Source: a virus. Taken from it: a stretch of DNA of 26,243 nt. Under the pieces are notes generated by a model, which searched no databases, had not been told where the DNA came from, and worked only from the letters and a program-made list of their open reading frames with translations. The translations under genes and the position numbers were made by a program. Position 1 is the stretch's first letter; every line of letters starts with the position of its first letter. Shown in pieces: positions 83 to 9,470 of the stretch. Location of the stretch: the IMG/VR virus record IMGVR_UViG_3300045243_000020, positions 1 through 26,243 of that record, one strand, 5' to 3'.

Positions 83-337
83 CTAGCTGCCTTGCTTCAA
101 CGGCCGGCCGGCCAGGTCCAGGTCGCCCGACTCGGTGGTGACGTGCTTATCGGCGATTTCGCAAGGTTTGTCATCGTGAAAATCGGCTGGCGTCAGATTG
201 AGTGCCCAGTAAGCTCCGCGGGCGAATCCGAGCATGTACAGATCGTCAATCGCAGGTATGCGAATAATTTTTGGCATTTCCGCGAGGTCCACTTCAAGTT
301 GGGCGCGGGCGGCGGCTTTAATGTCGGATAAATTCAT
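83..337 (-). CDS. Small phage protein of unknown function (84 aa)
   Basis: I do not recognise this protein. It is acidic to neutral and soluble-looking, with no membrane segment or Cys cluster. A short aromatic stretch (residues about 34-48, GFARGAYWALN) is its most distinctive part. Its ATG overlaps the stop of the preceding gene by four bases (ATGA), so the two are probably translationally coupled. It lies near the distal end of the leftward operon of small early-type phage genes. Confidence 0.75.
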   Translation of the reverse strand: MNLSDIKAAARAQLEVDLAEMPKIIRIPAIDDLYMLGFARGAYWALNLTPADFHDDKPCEIADKHVTTESGDLDLAGRPLKQGS

Positions 338-528
338 TTCTCGCGCTCCTTGATGAGCAGTTCTTCGTAAGGGTCGCCGTCCACGTCCTCGGCTGCGATT
401 TCCGCCGCCACGCAGCGCGAGCAGATATACCGCGTATGAACGTACAACGGACCGCGCTCGAACCGCCCACCCTCGTCGTTATCGGTCTCGCCAGACTTCC
501 CGCAGGCGTCGCAGATTTCGTAGCTCAT
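334..528 (-). CDS. Small zinc-ribbon-like protein (64 aa)
   Basis: The start chosen is the ATG at 528, which overlaps the upstream stop by four bases. An in-frame ATG at 561 would overlap the neighbour by 37 bases. The protein begins MSYEICDACGKSGE and has two Cys pairs, CDAC near residue 6 and CSRC near residue 38, the spacing of a zinc ribbon or treble clef. An acidic tail follows. It is probably a nucleic-acid or protein-binding accessory protein, but no specific function can be assigned. Confidence 0.75.
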   Translation of the reverse strand: MSYEICDACGKSGETDNDEGGRFERGPLYVHTRYICSRCVAAEIAAEDVDGDPYEELLIKEREK

Positions 529-827
529 ACGATCAACACCTTTCGAATGTTGATGCTGCACTGATCTGGTTTATCCGATTCACCGTACCAGCACAGCAGC
601 CATTGCCAATCAGCGGGCGCGCATTGCCGATCGAAAATCCCATCATGCCGCCGCCACATTTTGCCGGGGTAAACGCCGGTCGGCAGGGTACTTGAGTATT
701 CATGTAGCGCCTTGAATGTGCAATCGGTCATAAGCGCGTGCGTCTCGTCAATCGTAATTGCGCTCAACGGTGGCTGATCCCAATGCGCGCCGAGCGGATC
801 AGTAATCGCAGGAATCACGCTTTCCAT
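525..827 (-). CDS. Conserved-looking phage protein of unknown function (100 aa)
   Basis: This is a single soluble domain with no signal peptide or membrane helix. The central part, around residues 30-62 (DETHALMT, then YSSTLPTGVYPGKMWRR), looks like a phage protein family I have seen without a function. The C-terminal half is rich in Trp and Cys (WQWLLCWYG). The stop shares bases with the start of the next gene, and its own start lies inside the end of the preceding small gene, so it is embedded in a tightly packed operon. Confidence 0.8.
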   Translation of the reverse strand: MESVIPAITDPLGAHWDQPPLSAITIDETHALMTDCTFKALHEYSSTLPTGVYPGKMWRRHDGIFDRQCAPADWQWLLCWYGESDKPDQCSINIRKVLIV

Positions 828-979
828 TTTGGCGCCCTCGAATTGCGGTCAAGCACGTAAATCCCGCGCTTCCTGAGGTAAGCAATCGCCCTCGCCCTCT
901 TTTCGTCCATCGTCGCCGCGCGGGGCAGGGGATCAGTCGGGCGCTCGATCTGCTTTACCAGTCTCAGGCGAAATTGCAT
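815..979 (-). CDS. Small basic protein (54 aa)
   Basis: A short gene found by reading the gap between larger frames. The ATG at 979 has a near-perfect ribosome binding site (AAGGAGG) eight bases upstream, and the stop overlaps the next gene start (827) by 13 bases. The protein is rich in Arg and Lys, beginning MQFRLRLVKQIERP and ending RNSRAPKWKA, with a helical middle (MDEKRARAIAYLRKRG). It may bind nucleic acid, but the function is unknown. Confidence 0.75.
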   Translation of the reverse strand: MQFRLRLVKQIERPTDPLPRAATMDEKRARAIAYLRKRGIYVLDRNSRAPKWKA

Positions 980-981
980 GG

Positions 982-1206
982 TCAATTCCTCCTTATTAGT
1001 CCTTTCGTGCAGTCAAAATCAGGCGCCCCGCGCGAATGCATATAGCCGTTGATCGCAAGCAGGATGCCAATCAGCGTCGCGCCCTCGCCCTCAGGCACGT
1101 CTTGCGGTACGACTGCGCCAGAAACGCGCACGCCAACACCGAATTCGTTTTCCATGATGCCGCCGAGCGGTTTCACAGTGTCAATCTCAATGCTAACGCG
1201 GATCAT
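982..1206 (-). CDS. Small phage protein of unknown function (74 aa)
   Basis: Unrecognised small protein with beta-strand-like alternation in its first half (MIRVSIEIDTVKPLGG, then VGVRVSGAVVP) and a hydrophobic helix-like stretch (TLIGILLAINGYMH, about residues 44-57). It ends with a basic tail. No clear Shine-Dalgarno sequence precedes the ATG, so it may depend on readthrough translation from the gene ending at 1215, eight bases away. Only its position in the operon supports a phage early role. Confidence 0.65.
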   Translation of the reverse strand: MIRVSIEIDTVKPLGGIMENEFGVGVRVSGAVVPQDVPEGEGATLIGILLAINGYMHSRGAPDFDCTKGLIRRN

Positions 1207-1214
1207 GGTGCTTT

Positions 1215-1475
1215 TTACTTATCCGCCTGCATTGCCGCGGCGATCGCGGCGCGGGCCGCATAGCAATCATTGAGGCTAAAAACGCCTTCGTCTTCCCCGT
1301 CGTGGATTACGTATGTACGATCATGCGCGATTCCGCGCAATGGATTTTTGTCCCACTGATCGGCAAAATGCGCGAAGGGTTTCAGCGCATCCAGCAGTTC
1401 CGCATTGATGCCGCGCAGCCGGTCAATCTCAGCGTGTAGAGCCTCGTGCGCTTCCATCTGTTCTACTGTGCTCAT
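1215..1475 (-). CDS. Phage protein with N-terminal coiled coil (86 aa)
   Basis: The ATG at 1475 is preceded by GGAGGGAGA, a strong ribosome binding site. Residues 1-35 form a heptad-rich helix (MEAHEALHAEIDRLRGINAELLDALK), and the C-terminus (CYAARAAIAAAMQADK) matches the pattern of small phage proteins that end in 'ARAAIAKA'. Such proteins are common in accessory early regions, and I know of no assigned function for them. A second copy of the same purine-rich ribosome binding site precedes the gene at 55. Confidence 0.8.
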   Translation of the reverse strand: MSTVEQMEAHEALHAEIDRLRGINAELLDALKPFAHFADQWDKNPLRGIAHDRTYVIHDGEDEGVFSLNDCYAARAAIAAAMQADK

Positions 1476-1493
1476 AATCCCGTCTCCCTCCGG

Positions 1494-1520
1494 TCATCCT
1501 GCCTCAAGTGCGCAGTCCAT
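1494..1520 (-). CDS. Eight-codon open frame with strong ribosome binding site
   Basis: ATG at 1520, stop at 1496-1494, encoding MDCALEAG. It would be ignored except that AAGGAGG stands five bases before the ATG, and its stop lies directly against the ribosome binding site of the gene starting at 1475. It could act as a leader peptide or a translational relay for that gene, or be a remnant. Support is limited to these two features. Confidence 0.25.
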   Translation of the reverse strand: MDCALEAG

Positions 1521-1555
1521 TGCGGCCCTCCTTGGCCGCAAGAGGCTGGAACCTT

Positions 1556-1717
1556 TCAAACTGCCTTTTCTTTGCGTTCTTCTTTTTCTGCGGCTGATCC
1601 ACAGTATTTGCGCATTCCCATCGCCGTTTCAAATGCTCGCTGGAGTCGTTCAACTTCGCGTTTATATTCTGACTGCGATTTATCGACGGCCGCCTTATAT
1701 TTTTGGTCTGCATTCAT
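1556..1717 (-). CDS. Small coiled-coil protein (53 aa)
   Basis: A longer frame in another register covers the same DNA but reads as low-quality sequence. This frame gives a helical, charged protein (MNADQKYKAAVDKSQSEYKR and onward) with regular heptads (YKREVERLQRAFETAMGMRK) and is therefore preferred. GGGGAAA, a moderate ribosome binding site, precedes the ATG at 1717. Function is unknown. It is the second gene of the leftward operon, 36 bases after the first. Confidence 0.65.
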   Translation of the reverse strand: MNADQKYKAAVDKSQSEYKREVERLQRAFETAMGMRKYCGSAAEKEERKEKAV

Positions 1718-1753
1718 TTTCAATTTCCCCCTCTCGCGTTAAAATTCCATCGC

Positions 1754-1972
1754 CTATTCCGTTCTGCCGAGTGCGACCGGCGTTTTGATTCTGAATGCGC
1801 GCTGCGTCGCGAGGCTGGCATTAACGTAATTTTGCTCTGCCGCGTCCCGCAGTTTCTGCGCATCGTTGAATTGTTTCGCGGTCGCGTTCGGCGGTACGAC
1901 AATGCGCGACATTGCGGCGGTCAGATCAGTTCCGGCCTGCGCGAACAATTTCCGGTATTCAGATTTGGTCAT
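1754..1972 (-). CDS. First gene of leftward operon, small helical phage protein (72 aa)
   Basis: The ATG at 1972 is chosen because GGGAGA lies five bases upstream. An upstream in-frame ATG at 2008 has no such site and would sit almost on the promoter. The protein begins MTKSEYRKLFAQAGTDLTAA and is predicted to be mostly helical, with a central 'RIVVPPNATAKQFNDAQKLRDAAEQNY' region given here only in outline. It is promoter-proximal, about 40 bases downstream of the -10 box. I do not recognise a family. Confidence 0.75.
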   Translation of the reverse strand: MTKSEYRKLFAQAGTDLTAAMSRIVVPPNATAKQFNDAQKLRDAAEQNYVNASLATQRAFRIKTPVALGRTE

Positions 1973-2014: not shown

Positions 2015-2046
2015 AACATATACGCGCACTTGATACTTGTCAAGTG
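2015..2046 (-). promoter_or_regulatory. Leftward sigma70-like promoter with palindromic operator
   Basis: Read on the minus strand, TTGACA (2043-2038) and TATGTT (2020-2015) are separated by exactly 17 bases, upstream of the gene starting at 1972. A perfect palindrome, CACTTGA-N6-TCAAGTG, covers 2027-2046 and overlaps the -35 box, so a bound repressor would block RNA polymerase. Confidence 0.7.
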
Positions 2047-2231
2047 TTTTTCGCAATATATTTGAAAGGTTTCGGCACAAGCCAGATTGACCCCATGCGT
2101 TTAGCGCCAGGAACACGTTGCGCTTGCAGTAGAAGGTGAATCCAGCTACGCGTGTAGCCGGATTGGACCGATGCTTCTGTTACGGTTTGGAGAGGTTTGG
2201 ATTTGATCGCCATTGAAAAACCCTATCATAT

Positions 2232-2264
2232 CAGTTGACAAATAACAAGTGTGCAACTTAATAT
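2232..2264 (+). promoter_or_regulatory. Rightward sigma70-like promoter with operator
   Basis: TTGACA (2235-2240) and TAATAT (2259-2264) are 18 bases apart. Transcription would begin near 2271, upstream of the ATG at 2296. Bases 2232-2251, read on the minus strand, match the operator at 2027-2046 at 17 of 20 positions, and again overlap the -35 box. The two divergent operons are therefore likely controlled by the same protein. Confidence 0.65.
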
Positions 2265-2295: not shown

Positions 2296-2736
2296 ATGGG
2301 CGGAGATTATCATCTGGCGCATAATTATGTGTGCCGCGCAGTCAAGAAAGGATTGCTGCCAGACCTCAAAAAACTAACAGTAAAATGCTTTGATTGCGGT
2401 TCGCGTGCTACTGTATTCGATCATAGGGACTATTCGCGGTTTTTAGATGTTGAGCCCGTGTGTCAAAGCTGCAATATAAAGCGCGGCAAAGCAAAAAAAG
2501 AGAAAAAGGGGAAATACGAAATAGTCAGAAAAGAACCAAGACAAGAGCGGGCTGATATGAAAAGAATGAAGTCGGCCGCACAAGCTGCCGCGCAGTGGAG
2601 TTGTTCCGCTGTGTGGGTGCGCCGGTTATGCCAGCACGGGAGAATACGTGAGGCAATCAAGGTAGGCCGAGATTGGGTAATGCCGAAAAATGCAGAATAC
2701 CCGCGCCTCTACAAGCGCGGACGGAAACCGGCATGA
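2296..2736 (+). CDS. HNH-like zinc-finger protein fused to an excisionase-like HTH (146 aa)
   Basis: The ATG at 2296 has GAGG eight bases upstream and lies downstream of the predicted transcription start. An in-frame GTG at 2251 lies upstream of that start and is rejected. Residues 31-60 hold CFDC, DHRDY and CQSCN, the arrangement of HNH/treble-clef zinc proteins common in phages. A Lys-rich linker (63-90) leads to a helix-turn-helix segment at about 92-130 (SAAQAAAQWSCSAVWVRRLC) ending in GRDWVMP, the look of MerR/excisionase-type DNA-binding domains. I infer a DNA-binding or nuclease accessory role. The catalytic HNH histidine pair is not fully clear, so nuclease activity is uncertain. First gene of the rightward early operon. 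Confidence 0.8.
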   Translation: MGGDYHLAHNYVCRAVKKGLLPDLKKLTVKCFDCGSRATVFDHRDYSRFLDVEPVCQSCNIKRGKAKKEKKGKYEIVRKEPRQERADMKRMKSAAQAAAQWSCSAVWVRRLCQHGRIREAIKVGRDWVMPKNAEYPRLYKRGRKPA

Positions 2737-4022: not shown

Positions 4023-4247
4023 CTACTTCAAGCGTTCGGCGAGCATCGCGTCGGCGACTTTGTAGCAGTTCTGCGCTAGCACGTCAGCCCACGTCATGCC
4101 GAGGGCGGTTTGCTCTCGTGTCGGCGCGAAAACGCTATCAGGATTATCCAATTCGGTCAGCGCGGCCGCTGCAAAATAATCCCGCACGGTCAAGCCAAGT
4201 TCTTTCTCGGATGCGCCGGGGAAGGCGGGGCCGCCGTCGTGTTTCAT
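4023..4247 (-). CDS. Conserved phage protein of unknown function (74 aa)
   Basis: Begins MKHDGGPAFPGASEKELGLT and continues VRDYFAAAALTEL. The 'DGGPAFP...G(L/M)T(L/V)RDYFA' signature and the C-terminal 'YKVADAMLAER' are typical of a widespread small phage protein that often sits near replication genes. No biochemical role is known to me. Its start overlaps the helicase stop by four bases (ATGA), making it the last gene of the Cro-replication operon. Confidence 0.85.
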   Translation of the reverse strand: MKHDGGPAFPGASEKELGLTVRDYFAAAALTELDNPDSVFAPTREQTALGMTWADVLAQNCYKVADAMLAERLK

Positions 4248-5140
4248 TCGTCGAAGTCCTTGCGCAGATTGGAAACGGGCGCGGTCTTGATGATCTCTGC
4301 ATACTGGCCGGTAATGCGGCTGTAGCGCAGCGTTGCAAGTCCGATTCTGCCGATATGCCGGAACCGGACTTTCTGGACGTGAATATCAACCTCGGCAGAG
4401 TCCTCAGCCTGATCGCGCCATACCGTGATGCAGTTGTCTGCCTTGTTCCAGAAATGTGCCGAGCCTGATACGTCGCTTGGCGTGGGGACCGGCAGTTTCC
4501 CGGTGGCGCGGTCACGGAACATCTTCGCCGGGTGCGCAACGAGCCATACGTGAATATTCGCTTCCCGGCAGACGCGAATTAGTTCAGATAATTCGAGGCT
4601 TATCCATTCCGTCTCACTCATTCCTTGAATTCTGAAATGTTCCAGTTGGTTCCACGGATCGACCACTACCCCGACGTTGTAACTGCGCACCGTTGAAGGC
4701 GGGTACTGAAAATGCGTCACCGCCTCTTGCAGGATCGAAACCAGGTCGGGCTTTTCAGGCTTGGCGAAGTTGAACTTCCCCCGCAACCATTCTTCGCCTT
4801 CCTCGACATCTTCGGGGTTCATGCGCGGGGTCAATCCTGGGTTGAACGGCTTGCCCAGGTACTTTTCGAGCAGGGTCGAATGGTGCAGAGCCAGCGGCCA
4901 GTTCTCCGGACTGTAGATGATGAATTTCCACTCGCTGCGCTTGGCGAGATTCACCAGCAGCGCATCGAGCCAATTCGACTTGCCGCTTGCGGGTGTTCCG
5001 GTAATCAGCGTCCATTGCCCCATCGCCACGGTGTAGAGCTTATCCACGCTCGGCCAGCCGGTAGAGCAGCCTTTGGGGAAACCACCATCCTCGTAAAGCC
5101 TGATAACCTCGGCGCGGATTTGATCGTGCGGAATTATCAT
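4244..5140 (-). CDS. DnaB/Twinkle-type replicative helicase, RecA-fold ATPase (298 aa)
   Basis: A RecA-fold ATPase. Walker A is GTPASGKS at residues 48-55, Walker B is VGVVVDP ending at Asp161-Pro162, and a sensor-type VAHP is at 201-204. A Lys/Arg-containing strand (VQKVRFRHIG, about 256-265) fits the position of the arginine-finger loop of hexameric helicases. The N-terminus 'STGWPSVDKLYTV' matches the start of the DnaB/Twinkle C-terminal domain. At 298 residues it lacks both a primase domain and the DnaB N-terminal domain, so it is a helicase-only form. It probably unwinds phage DNA after loading by the DUF1376 protein encoded upstream, whose stop overlaps its start by four bases. Confidence 0.92.
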   Translation of the reverse strand: MIIPHDQIRAEVIRLYEDGGFPKGCSTGWPSVDKLYTVAMGQWTLITGTPASGKSNWLDALLVNLAKRSEWKFIIYSPENWPLALHHSTLLEKYLGKPFNPGLTPRMNPEDVEEGEEWLRGKFNFAKPEKPDLVSILQEAVTHFQYPPSTVRSYNVGVVVDPWNQLEHFRIQGMSETEWISLELSELIRVCREANIHVWLVAHPAKMFRDRATGKLPVPTPSDVSGSAHFWNKADNCITVWRDQAEDSAEVDIHVQKVRFRHIGRIGLATLRYSRITGQYAEIIKTAPVSNLRKDFDE

Positions 5141-5772
5141 ATTGCGACCGTCCTTTCAGGTGGTTTGGGTGATTCATCTTCCCATCTGCGCCCGGTCAAC
5201 CAAGTGGCCGGATAAGGGATAAATTTTCCGTTTTCTTTCGACCATTGTCCGTTGTTTTTTTGCGCTGCGACGGCGGCAACGATGCGCGCCTGTAATGCAT
5301 CATCAGGATTTAACTTTGACCAGGCTTTAATCGCGTCCGCTTTCGCTTGCTTGCGCGGATAGGGCTCCCAGAAAGCAGAGAATCCTGGCAATGCGGCGCC
5401 ATTGCCTTTATGTGTCGTGTTTTTTTTGGCTGGAGTTTTACGGCGCGCGGCCGCTGACGCTTTGCCGGCCTCGGATTGATGCACTAGGAATTCGCGCAAG
5501 TTTTCCAAGTCACGCTCAATGCGATGGTGGATCAGTTTTCCATCGGATTCGTGGAAATACCGTTTGATGATTCGTTCAACAATTGTCTGAGACGATGATT
5601 CGTGTGCTCTCGCAACGCGATATAACTGCTCTCGATCACAAGGCAATCCGCCTTGCCAATAATAGGTAAAAACCAGGATGCAATAAACTCCGTGTTCGGC
5701 GTGGGTAAGGTCCAAAGTGTCCAGCAGATAATCAGCCGGGCAAAACTTGAACCACGGCAAGCGTTCAAGCAT
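5137..5772 (-). CDS. DUF1376-type phage replication protein (211 aa)
   Basis: The start at 5772 is preferred because AAGGAAG lies nine bases upstream. An in-frame ATG at 5790 lies deeper in the cro gene without a ribosome binding site. Residues 1-90 show the DUF1376 pattern: 'LPWFKFCPADYLLDTLDLTHAEHG' in outline, then a YCILVFTYYWQGG helix. A basic linker of KK/RR residues (about 100-120) leads to a C-terminal domain with FWEPYPRKQAKADAIKAW and YPATWLTGRRWED, shared by phage replication-initiation proteins. I infer origin binding and helicase recruitment. It overlaps cro by eight bases. Confidence 0.88.
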   Translation of the reverse strand: MLERLPWFKFCPADYLLDTLDLTHAEHGVYCILVFTYYWQGGLPCDREQLYRVARAHESSSQTIVERIIKRYFHESDGKLIHHRIERDLENLREFLVHQSEAGKASAAARRKTPAKKNTTHKGNGAALPGFSAFWEPYPRKQAKADAIKAWSKLNPDDALQARIVAAVAAQKNNGQWSKENGKFIPYPATWLTGRRWEDESPKPPERTVAI

Positions 5773-5968
5773 TGACCGCTTCCTTGGCATCCTTATCGTA
5801 AAGTGACGGATCGACCCGCAGCAATCCGCCGGTGACTACTTGGAGTTTGTAGGCTCGACCTTCCGGCACAAAATCGCCCCAGTCGGAAACGGCTTGAACG
5901 GTGATATTTAGCGCACGAGCGAGCGCAGTAGCGGTTCCGAAGTGCTGAATAGCCAAAGCCTTAAGCAT
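5765..5968 (-). CDS. cro: P22 Cro-family repressor (67 aa)
   Basis: Small single-domain helix-turn-helix protein. Residues 10-31 (FGTATALARALNITVQAVSD) form the HTH, and the rest follows the P22 Cro layout: 'PEGRAYKLQVVTGGLLRVD', then a short tail. P22 Cro is about the same length. It probably binds palindromic operators to repress early promoters. A perfect palindrome lies directly upstream of its own ATG at 5986-6007. There is almost no ribosome binding site, and the predicted transcription start falls on or next to the ATG, so the message may be leaderless. The usual divergent CI-type repressor gene is absent. Confidence 0.88.
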   Translation of the reverse strand: MLKALAIQHFGTATALARALNITVQAVSDWGDFVPEGRAYKLQVVTGGLLRVDPSLYDKDAKEAVNA

Positions 5969-5975
5969 ACTTTAG

Positions 5976-6007
5976 AGCGTAAGCCAGCTTGATATTTTTG
6001 TCAAGCT
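5976..6007 (-). promoter_or_regulatory. Promoter and palindromic operator upstream of cro
   Basis: On the minus strand TTGACA (6004-5999) lies 17 bases from TACGCT (5981-5976), a weak -10. The palindrome AGCTTGA-N8-TCAAGCT (5986-6007) covers the -35 box and spacer. It shares the CTTGATA and TTGTCAAG blocks with the operators at 2027-2046 and 2232-2251, which suggests one regulator, most simply the Cro encoded next to it. Confidence 0.6.
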
Positions 6008-6028
6008 ACCTTGAAAAAACCAAACCAC

Positions 6029-6119
6029 GGTTAAACGCCGGTTCAACGCCGGTTCAACCACCGTTCAACAAGTGTTTAACCGACGTACCAACCGGATGGT
6101 CAACCGGAATTCAACCACC
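6029..6119. repeat. Iteron array, 11-12 bp units
   Basis: Eight consecutive units start at about 6029, 6040, 6051, 6063, 6074, 6085, 6096 and 6108. The best two are GGTTAAACGCC and GGTTCAACGCC, followed by GGTTCAACCACC and GTTCAACAAGT. Later units are degenerate but keep a (T/C)CAACC or TAACC core. The 11-12 bp period puts sites on one face of the helix, as in plasmid and phage origins bound by an initiator. Two stray copies occur near 6148-6162. The DUF1376 gene next door is the obvious candidate initiator. Confidence 0.6.
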
Positions 6120-6341
6120 AGACCAGACCATAACCAGAACATTGCGCGGTTCGACCACCGTTCCAAAAACTAGCGCCATGAGGCCGCGCAATTGCTCGCT
6201 GCGCTCGCTTGTGTGTCGGTAATTCGGCGCGGGGTATCAAGCACCAAAACAGTGCGCCCACTATTTGACTGCCTGGCTGGCCGATTTGGACCGCGCCTTG
6301 CAGGCAGACTTTCGGCCAGCGAGCGGCTCCGGCAAATCACC

Positions 6342-6485: not shown

Positions 6486-6854
6486 ATGGAAAACAAGCAG
6501 TGGGTGATCTACGCTATCTTGGACGAAGATGGCGTGCCGGTGTACGTCGGTTGTACGAGCGAATTAAAAACCAGAGCGAAGCAACACAAGTGCGCAAGTG
6601 ATAACCGGGAGTTGCGGCAGTGGATACGTTCGCGTCCTTGTCCGCCGGTATATGCCGTAGTCGGTCTGATTAGCGACCGCGACAAGGCGCTGAGAATCGA
6701 GCTTGCGTATATTCGATCGCTGCTGCCTGAATTCAACAAGAACGCGGGGCCTGGGAGCAGGGCAAGAAGCGGAATTGACATGCGGCGGAAAATGAGTAAG
6801 AGTAGATCGCATGAAGTGGTGCGCCAACTGCCAGCAGAAGCTCTCGGTGACTAA
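6486..6854 (+). CDS. GIY-YIG domain protein, putative nuclease (122 aa)
   Basis: The ATG at 6486 follows AGGGG. A longer frame to 6417 adds a basic, unlikely tail. The GIY-YIG layout is visible: VIY at residues 7-9, YVG at 20-22, Arg30 in LKTRAKQHK, a catalytic-position Glu72 in RIELAYI, and an Asn at 86 in FNKNAG. The domain fills residues 5-88, and the C-terminal 30 residues are Arg/Lys/Ser-rich. Such single-domain proteins may be homing or repair-type nucleases. It begins the rightward transcript leaving the origin and overlaps the next gene by 44 bases. Confidence 0.82.
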   Translation: MENKQWVIYAILDEDGVPVYVGCTSELKTRAKQHKCASDNRELRQWIRSRPCPPVYAVVGLISDRDKALRIELAYIRSLLPEFNKNAGPGSRARSGIDMRRKMSKSRSHEVVRQLPAEALGD

Positions 6855-8873: not shown

Positions 8874-9470
8874 ATGTCAACATTGCAAGAAAAAGAAGCT
8901 CGTGACCAAAATATCGCAGTGTTATTCAGGCATGGAGTGAGCCAGCCAATTATTGCCGCGCAGTTGCATCTTACGCGACAACGCGTTAGTCAAATTCTGC
9001 TGCGAAAGTTTAGCTTGGATTCAAAATCCGGCGGCCAGCATTTGCTTGCACTAAGAAAAAAGTCCGAAGCGCGTAAGGCTTTCCGAAAAAAAACAAGTGT
9101 CACGTTGGAGCAGTGGAAATTCCTAACGCTGAATGGCGTAACTAGAAAATATAGAAATCAACAGAGCGGAGCCAAAGCCCGCGGAATAGCATTCAATCTG
9201 TCATTGGCGCAATTTTGGAAAATATGGTGCGAGTCAGGCAAGTTTGCGGAGCGCGGGAGGGGAGCGGATAAATATTGCATGGCTAGATTTCTGGATAAAG
9301 GGCCGTATGAAATTGGGAACGTGAAGATAATAACCAATCGAGAAAACTCGTCAGAAAGAGAAAAAAATAAGCGTTTATTGCAATTTAAACGACGTAGGAG
9401 TAACGTGCGCTCTTTCAAGTCATTGAAAGTTAGCGCAAATGGCGAAGCGCGGCGCCCCGCTCGGAAATAA
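8874..9470 (+). CDS. HTH plus phage HNH-like protein, stand-alone mobile-type gene (198 aa)
   Basis: Residues 12-45 form a helix-turn-helix (IAVLFRHGVSQPIIAAQLHL then TRQRVSQILLRKF), like DNA-binding regions of sigma-type or homing-nuclease accessory domains. Residues 85-180 follow a phage HNH-like pattern: SGAKARGIAFNLSLAQFWKI, W.ESGKFAERGRGADKYCM, ARFLDKGPYEIGNVKIIT and NRENSSEREKN. Catalytic status is unclear. The DNA is AT-richer, with many A-runs, than the flanking genes, which suggests later acquisition. Its 3' end overlaps the next gene by 32 bases, and no clear ribosome binding site precedes the ATG. Confidence 0.75.
   Translation: MSTLQEKEARDQNIAVLFRHGVSQPIIAAQLHLTRQRVSQILLRKFSLDSKSGGQHLLALRKKSEARKAFRKKTSVTLEQWKFLTLNGVTRKYRNQQSGAKARGIAFNLSLAQFWKIWCESGKFAERGRGADKYCMARFLDKGPYEIGNVKIITNRENSSEREKNKRLLQFKRRRSNVRSFKSLKVSANGEARRPARK

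Follow-up and report, generated by a model that had tools for sequence, protein, structure and literature searches.

Does one early repressor silence several promoters of this phage together, or are its early genes under two separate controls? The window, by which we mean the whole stretch of DNA analysed, is a linear virus record of 26,243 bp. A reading made from the sequence alone had proposed that a palindromic operator on the -35 box is common to three promoters and that a Cro-like protein acts on all of them. The account we prefer, to which we assign a probability of about 0.42, replaces this three-site regulon with two repressor controls: Cro would act at positions 5999-6016, and a pair of sites, here called S1 and S2, would serve another regulator, most likely a host protein of the CRP/FNR type. 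We favour it because a Cro-family frame is found at 5999-6016, because S1 and S2 have the opposite orientation, and because the S1 motif recurs beside CRP/FNR-family genes. Searches of an incomplete literature collection gave no published work on the switch of this phage.

Gene content of the window

Judged by its genes for a terminase, a P22-type coat protein and a P22-like portal protein, the window is a P22-like podophage. The nearest relatives of the portal protein (50-52% identity) are those of Manatee Spring phages, EBPR podovirus 1 and Rhodoferax phage P26218. The genomes of these relatives measure 36-39 kb as against 26 kb here, so the record is presumably a fragment from which about one third of the genome is probably absent. 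No DNA relatives of positions 1-2750 were found among phages, and tRNA and Rfam scans returned no matches.

Downstream of S1 lies a leftward early operon of seven small ORFs (83-1972, minus strand); one has a PHROG of unknown function and none of the seven has a known role. The first gene to the right of S2 (2296-2736, plus strand) encodes a protein with a zinc/HNH-like N-terminal part, a motif assigned by eye, and a weakly HTH_17/excisionase-like C-terminal part. No relatives of this protein were found in viral contigs, and a separate locus scan gave a weak likeness in locus L012. Convergent with this gene is a leftward operon that starts at 5968 and consists of cro (5765-5968, minus strand, 67 aa) and, by domain match, genes for a DUF1376/primosomal (O-like) protein (5137-5790, minus strand) and a DnaB-C/primase-helicase-like protein (4244-5140, minus strand). 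Genes for GIY-YIG and HNH-like endonucleases, possibly homing, were also seen at 6486-6854 and 8874-9470, in the early-to-late region.

The cro product matched the Pfam family P22_Cro with 77.1 bits (E 8.9e-22), where the curated cut-off is 30.2, and its nearest solved structure by phmmer was 1rzs (E 1.5e-11). By these matches the gene is a true P22-type cro. A single-sequence fold of the protein was set aside (mean pLDDT 57). We saw no cI-like gene upstream of cro among those ORFs of this fragment record that were scanned, and no HTH_Crp_2 (CRP-family) gene within the 26 kb.

A matched pair of sites on two divergent promoters

S1 is a 20-bp palindrome, CACTTGATACTTGTCAAGTG, at 2027-2046 (minus strand CACTTGACAAGTATCAAGTG), with arms that agree at 7/7 positions around a spacer of 6; letters and coordinates were as the sequence-only reading had them. 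S2, CAGTTGACAAATAACAAGTG at 2232-2251 on the plus strand, has arms of 5/7. The minus strand of 2232-2251 was said to match S1 at 17 of 20 positions, and it does. It is the sole other match with at most three mismatches in the 26,243 bp, and 100 dinucleotide shuffles yielded none; many equally good matches inside genes, which would have counted against the proposal, were thus not found. The half-sites are TGTCAAGTG and TATCAAGTG in S1 and TGTCAACTG and TAACAAGTG in S2, and a scan for the S1 half-sites (spacer 6, at least 12/14) recovered these two sites and nothing else, against a mean of 0.0 in 30 Markov shuffles.

The hexamer TTGACA occurs 13 times in the window and, as claimed, within both sites and within S3, the palindrome at the cro promoter. 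The best partner arm was 7/7 for S1, 7/7 for S3 and 5/7 for S2, and at most 4/7 for the remaining 10. Simulated odds per hexamer were 0.0005 for 7/7, 0.010 for 6/7 and 0.10 for 5/7. The significance of S2 therefore comes from its likeness to S1, its own symmetry (5/7, P 0.10) being insufficient. That likeness is 17/20 inside the site as against 32/100 across 50 + 50 flanking bases. The identity does not extend beyond the 20 bp, a pattern that a binding site would show; a copied promoter was ruled out on the flank identity.

Both sites overlie strong promoter-like sequences. The S1 promoter (minus strand) has its -35 box TTGACA at 2043-2038, a spacer of 17 and a -10 box TATGTT at 2020-2015; the S2 promoter (plus strand) has TTGACA at 2235-2240, a spacer of 18 and TAATAT at 2259-2264. 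In a consensus scan blind to palindromes, these were the top two sigma-70-like sites (10/12) within the first 8 kb. S1 and S2 each begin 3 bases ahead of the -35 hexamer, so that their placement is identical, and since they overlap this box, a bound protein should shut out RNA polymerase. The proposal that the two divergent early promoters carry matching operators is supported in this respect, and on these sequence features S1 and S2 are very probably a genuine operator pair.

The cro promoter carries a predicted Cro-family operator

The third proposed site, S3 (AGCTTGACAAAAATATCAAGCT, 5986-6007, minus strand), is a real palindrome, AGCTTGA-tatttttg-TCAAGCT, with arms of 7/7 and a spacer of 8, and it is significant in itself (P 0.0005 per hexamer). 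Its proposed likeness to S1 stood less well: the two agree at 4/20 positions ungapped and are alike only with a 2-bp gap, and much of the likeness is owed to TTGACA plus symmetry. The spacer of S3 exceeds that of S1 by 2 bp, and the outer bases of S3 are AG..CT as against CA..TG in S1 and S2. A matrix built from the three sites ranked them 1-3, as expected for the sites on which it was trained; the next in rank, at 16.9 bits, falls within the DUF1376 gene.

To define the operator frame of the family, we collected regions upstream of P22_Cro-family genes from phages, from viral contigs and from sampled genomes (sets of 398, 369 and 394 genomes, with no more than 30 loci taken per search). Filtering at E 1e-8 and requiring a start codon preceded by 80 bp or more left 52 regions, 50 of them nonredundant. 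Among the matches listed, an inverted repeat of the form 7+N4+7 (at least 6/7) was present in 33 of the 50 regions, where shuffles predicted 11.1. Other even spacers were also enriched among these 50 (0 in 28, 6 in 24 and 8 in 21), partly because nested frames have a common centre. Typical operators of the family are AGTTAAGacatCTTAAAT (from the enterobacterial phage CUS-3, between cI and cro), AGTTTAGcaatCTTAACT and ATGTAAGagagCTTACAT, in which AAG is innermost. The sequence TCAAG-N4-CTTGAA in loci L010 and L029 was taken as chance; in L010 at least, it falls within a terminase-like gene.

An 18-bp sequence in the family frame is present at the cro promoter of the window: O1, TTTCAAG-gtag-CTTGACA (TTTCAAGgtagCTTGACA, 5999-6016, minus strand), a predicted P22-type Cro operator whose right half covers the -35 TTGACA (6004-5999). 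Its symmetry is 6/7, or 9/11 counting flanks and core, and it was the best N4 inward site in the window under a matrix trained on O1 itself. The promoter as a whole reads TTTCAAG-gtag-CTTGACA-aaaa-TATCAAG, with a half-site every 11 bp. We therefore read S3 as a probable outward-facing pair, made of the right half of O1 and an extra half-site, TATCAAG, 11 bp further on. In a locus whose Cro is 97% identical (L003), the counterpart TTTCAAGctagCTTGACA keeps both half-sites and the change is confined to the N4; in another whose Cro is 48% identical (L014), the counterpart TGTCAACtcttTTTGACA has the same offset to TTGACA as in the window, and an S3-type palindrome is absent from the best three palindromes of L014. 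The view that the replication operon begins with a Cro-family gene whose own -35 box carries an operator was thus borne out at the level of prediction.

S1 and S2 do not have this frame. Scored as an N4 inward site, S1 has a single good half (13.5 vs 22.9 bits) and S2 has none, so the leftward early promoter lacks an operator of the Cro-family type. The half-sites of S1 and S2 are oriented outward, whereas those of the Cro-family operator face inward. The seven-base cores of the cro half-sites TTTCAAGGT, TGTCAAGCT and TATCAAGCT agree with those of S1 and S2, and a terminal TG is found in 4/4 half-sites of S1 and S2 as against 0/3 at cro.

The predicted cro promoter (TTGACA-17-TACGCT, 5976-6004, minus strand) was missing from the consensus scan because TACGCT matches at just 3/6 positions. 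Its -10 box lies 7 nt from the ATG, which predicts a leaderless cro mRNA. This distance is 6-7 nt, and cro is apparently leaderless, in the window (5968-6004) and in loci L003 (at 3291), L014 and L006 (EBPR podovirus 1 is among the leaderless cases); it is 26-31 nt in five enterobacterial or marine P22-type phages (L030-L034).

Repeat arrays near the replication genes

Directly upstream of the cro promoter lies an array of GTTNAAC-like repeats at 11-bp spacing (6021-6116, minus strand; GTTNAAC+N4, lag-11 autocorrelation z 6.2). Repeats phased at 11 bp also occur just ahead of the replication operon's first gene at L003 3154-3236, where the array is shorter by exactly one 11-bp unit, and at L009 4765-4829 (TAGCGTGCTAA). 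Tandem arrays of 10-12 bp were found in the 1 kb preceding the helicase gene in 10 of 20 helicase loci (L009-L028 and L003; 2 of 22 loci were dropped as too close to a contig end), and elsewhere in the same loci there were 6 arrays in 170.7 kb. The upstream arrays often lie beside an AAGAG/AGAGA purine tract (for example in L014, L022, L024 and L027). They look like a signature of phage replication origins.

The S1 motif recurs beside CRP/FNR-family genes

Boxes of the CRP/FNR family are of the type TTGAT-N4-ATCAA. S1, CTTGA-N6-TCAAG, satisfies the frame TTGAY-N4-RTCAA exactly (TTGACAAGTATCAA, TTGAC-N4-ATCAA). This match by S1 alone is weak, since any TTGACA palindrome with a spacer of 6 is nearly an FNR-like box by construction. 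S2 (TTGACAAATAACAA, TTGAC-N4-AACAA) fails the frame and agrees with TTGAT-N4-ATCAA at 8/10 positions; S3, with N6 between TTGAC and ATCAA, also fails it.

The pattern CACTTGACAANTATCAAGTG, in which 19 bases are fixed, occurred in 6 stretches of 84,980 bacterial and archaeal genomes, and 4 of the 6 adjoin a gene with cNMP_binding and HTH_Crp_2 domains. In L035 and L037, a near-identical locus in two MAGs, the site (1734-1753 in L035) lies about 41 bp upstream of the CRP/FNR-family gene. In L040 the site (6150-6169) precedes such a gene by about 39 bp, measured to its likely start, a codon chosen by hand, as the mechanical ORF reads through the site; an MFS transporter gene diverges on the far side. 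The L038 site lies 69 bp downstream of the gene, and the remaining two stretches (L036 and L039) showed no CRP/FNR-family neighbor in the part read. Between L035 and L040 the encoded proteins share 55% identity, and the site is conserved at 19/20 amid diverged flanks, so in these loci it has the character of an operator bound by the regulator itself. From its placement and conservation, the motif is likely to be an autoregulatory operator of this CRP/FNR subfamily.

The search favoured S1-like sites because 19 of 20 bases were fixed, and the independent CRP/FNR contexts number about two, since L035, L037 and L040 form one orthologous group and the L038 site is downstream. A looser pattern, ACTTGAYNNNNRTCAAGT, gave 42 sites in 39 of 398 genomes and its reversed control 14 (a hand count from the table); among the 30 loci read, a CRP-like gene was near the site in just one (L185), and there the site is on the downstream side of the gene.

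The exact S1 sequence was not found in viral contigs, and a relaxed S1/S2 pattern gave 6 stretches there, five of them inside coding ORFs (L172-L176). The sixth, CACTTGACAAATATCAAGTG at L177 9075-9094, matches S1 at 19/20 and lies in an unrelated phage contig, where a gap of about 490 bp separates two forward ORFs. The ORFs that span this site appear to be spurious, and its surroundings showed no recognisable regulator of relevance. Among the phage loci scanned, an FNR-like box could be placed at a promoter in the window only.

One control or two

In the account we favour, Cro would most likely bind the 18-bp O1 and shut its own promoter and hence the replication operon. A separate protein bound at S1 and S2 would keep RNA polymerase off both divergent promoters at once, the one for the leftward operon of small ORFs and the one for the HNH-like gene to the right. 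The likeliest such protein would be a host CRP/FNR-type regulator of the FNR/ANR/DNR clade, and it would tie early transcription of the phage to oxygen, nitric oxide or a similar signal. Binding, repression and signal are all inferred here. That a host CRP/FNR-type protein binds S1 and S2 is a tentative proposal drawn from the motif. Unlikely as a whole is the fuller scenario, in which this sensor on both -35 boxes delays early transcription until the respiratory state suits and Cro limits the replication operon only.

It could instead be that Cro binds and silences the S1, S2 and cro promoters alike. This is the standard role of Cro, which acts at both PL and PR of lambda. S1 and the cro promoter have the half-site 7-mers TGTCAAG and TATCAAG in identical form, with S2 at 6/7 of each, the three sites share their placement on TTGACA, and the string CTTGACAA..TA.CAAG is common to all three (with one mismatch per S2 half), which favours a single binder over two controls. 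P22-type Cro is also reported to dimerise weakly compared with N15 Cro (PMC4997575), and this could relax the spacing needed. However, the spacer, the outer bases, the orientation of the Cro-family frame and the recurrence at CRP/FNR genes all speak against one operator common to three promoters, and Cro of PY54 is reported to bind one operator only (PMC4488713). We consider it somewhat unlikely that Cro acts at all three.

Another possibility, and a distinctly less probable one, is that S1 and S2 serve another phage regulator, either the HTH protein encoded at 2296-2736 or a repressor encoded in the absent part of the genome. The weak HTH_17/excisionase-like part in the product of the gene behind S2 makes autoregulation plausible, and a 26-kb linear fragment with relatives of 36-39 kb may lack the gene for a phage-encoded regulator of S1/S2. 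On the other hand, the search of viral contigs gave no relative of the 2296-2736 protein, and proteins of the HTH_17/excisionase type are not known to favour 20-bp palindromes as targets. Finally, S1 and S2 might be a functionless chance likeness around two strong -35 boxes, as the hexamer supplies 6 of the 17 shared bases and S2 alone is not significant. This is very improbable: outside the hexamer 11/14 bases agree (P for at least 11/14 about 4e-5), the identity stops at the 20-bp edges, and the full arms of S1 and S3 each have low odds.

Comparison with known systems

The cro region resembles that of P22-type phages (the P22/CUS-3 group; PF14549) in that a 67-aa P22_Cro protein heads the replication operon and an 18-bp 7+N4+7 site is found at its promoter. 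It differs in that neither a divergent cI nor a three-site OR was seen beside cro in this record, which has one full operator and one half-site, and in that cro is predicted to be leaderless. In PY54, a linear plasmid prophage, cro is transcribed as a leaderless mRNA; the operator of PY54 Cro is upstream of cI, and the protein is reported as probably not shutting off its own production (PMC4488713). PY54 is similar in its leaderless cro (predicted here) and very restricted operator use; it is unlike this phage in that our predicted site is on the cro promoter.

As for boxes of the CRP/FNR family, S1 has their exact frame and agrees at 19/20 with the site conserved upstream of two CRP-family genes. 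Unlike them, S1 and S2 lie in a phage and over early -35 boxes, S2 matches at 8/10, and the record is without a regulator gene. That an FNR-family protein can influence a prophage has a precedent in Shewanella, where deletion of Fnr (EtrA) raised expression of LambdaSo prophage genes, at which there is one predicted EtrA site; the authors judged the effect mostly indirect, and an operator pair on early promoters is not described in the part of that paper available (PMC3078092).

If Cro alone acts, the early circuit of this uncultured phage is of the ordinary lambdoid kind, and its main use would be as a clean example of how adjacent half-sites make a misleading palindrome. If, on the other hand, a host sensor of the CRP/FNR type binds S1 and S2, these sites would be a direct link, at the level of sequence, between the respiratory state of the host and the start of phage infection.
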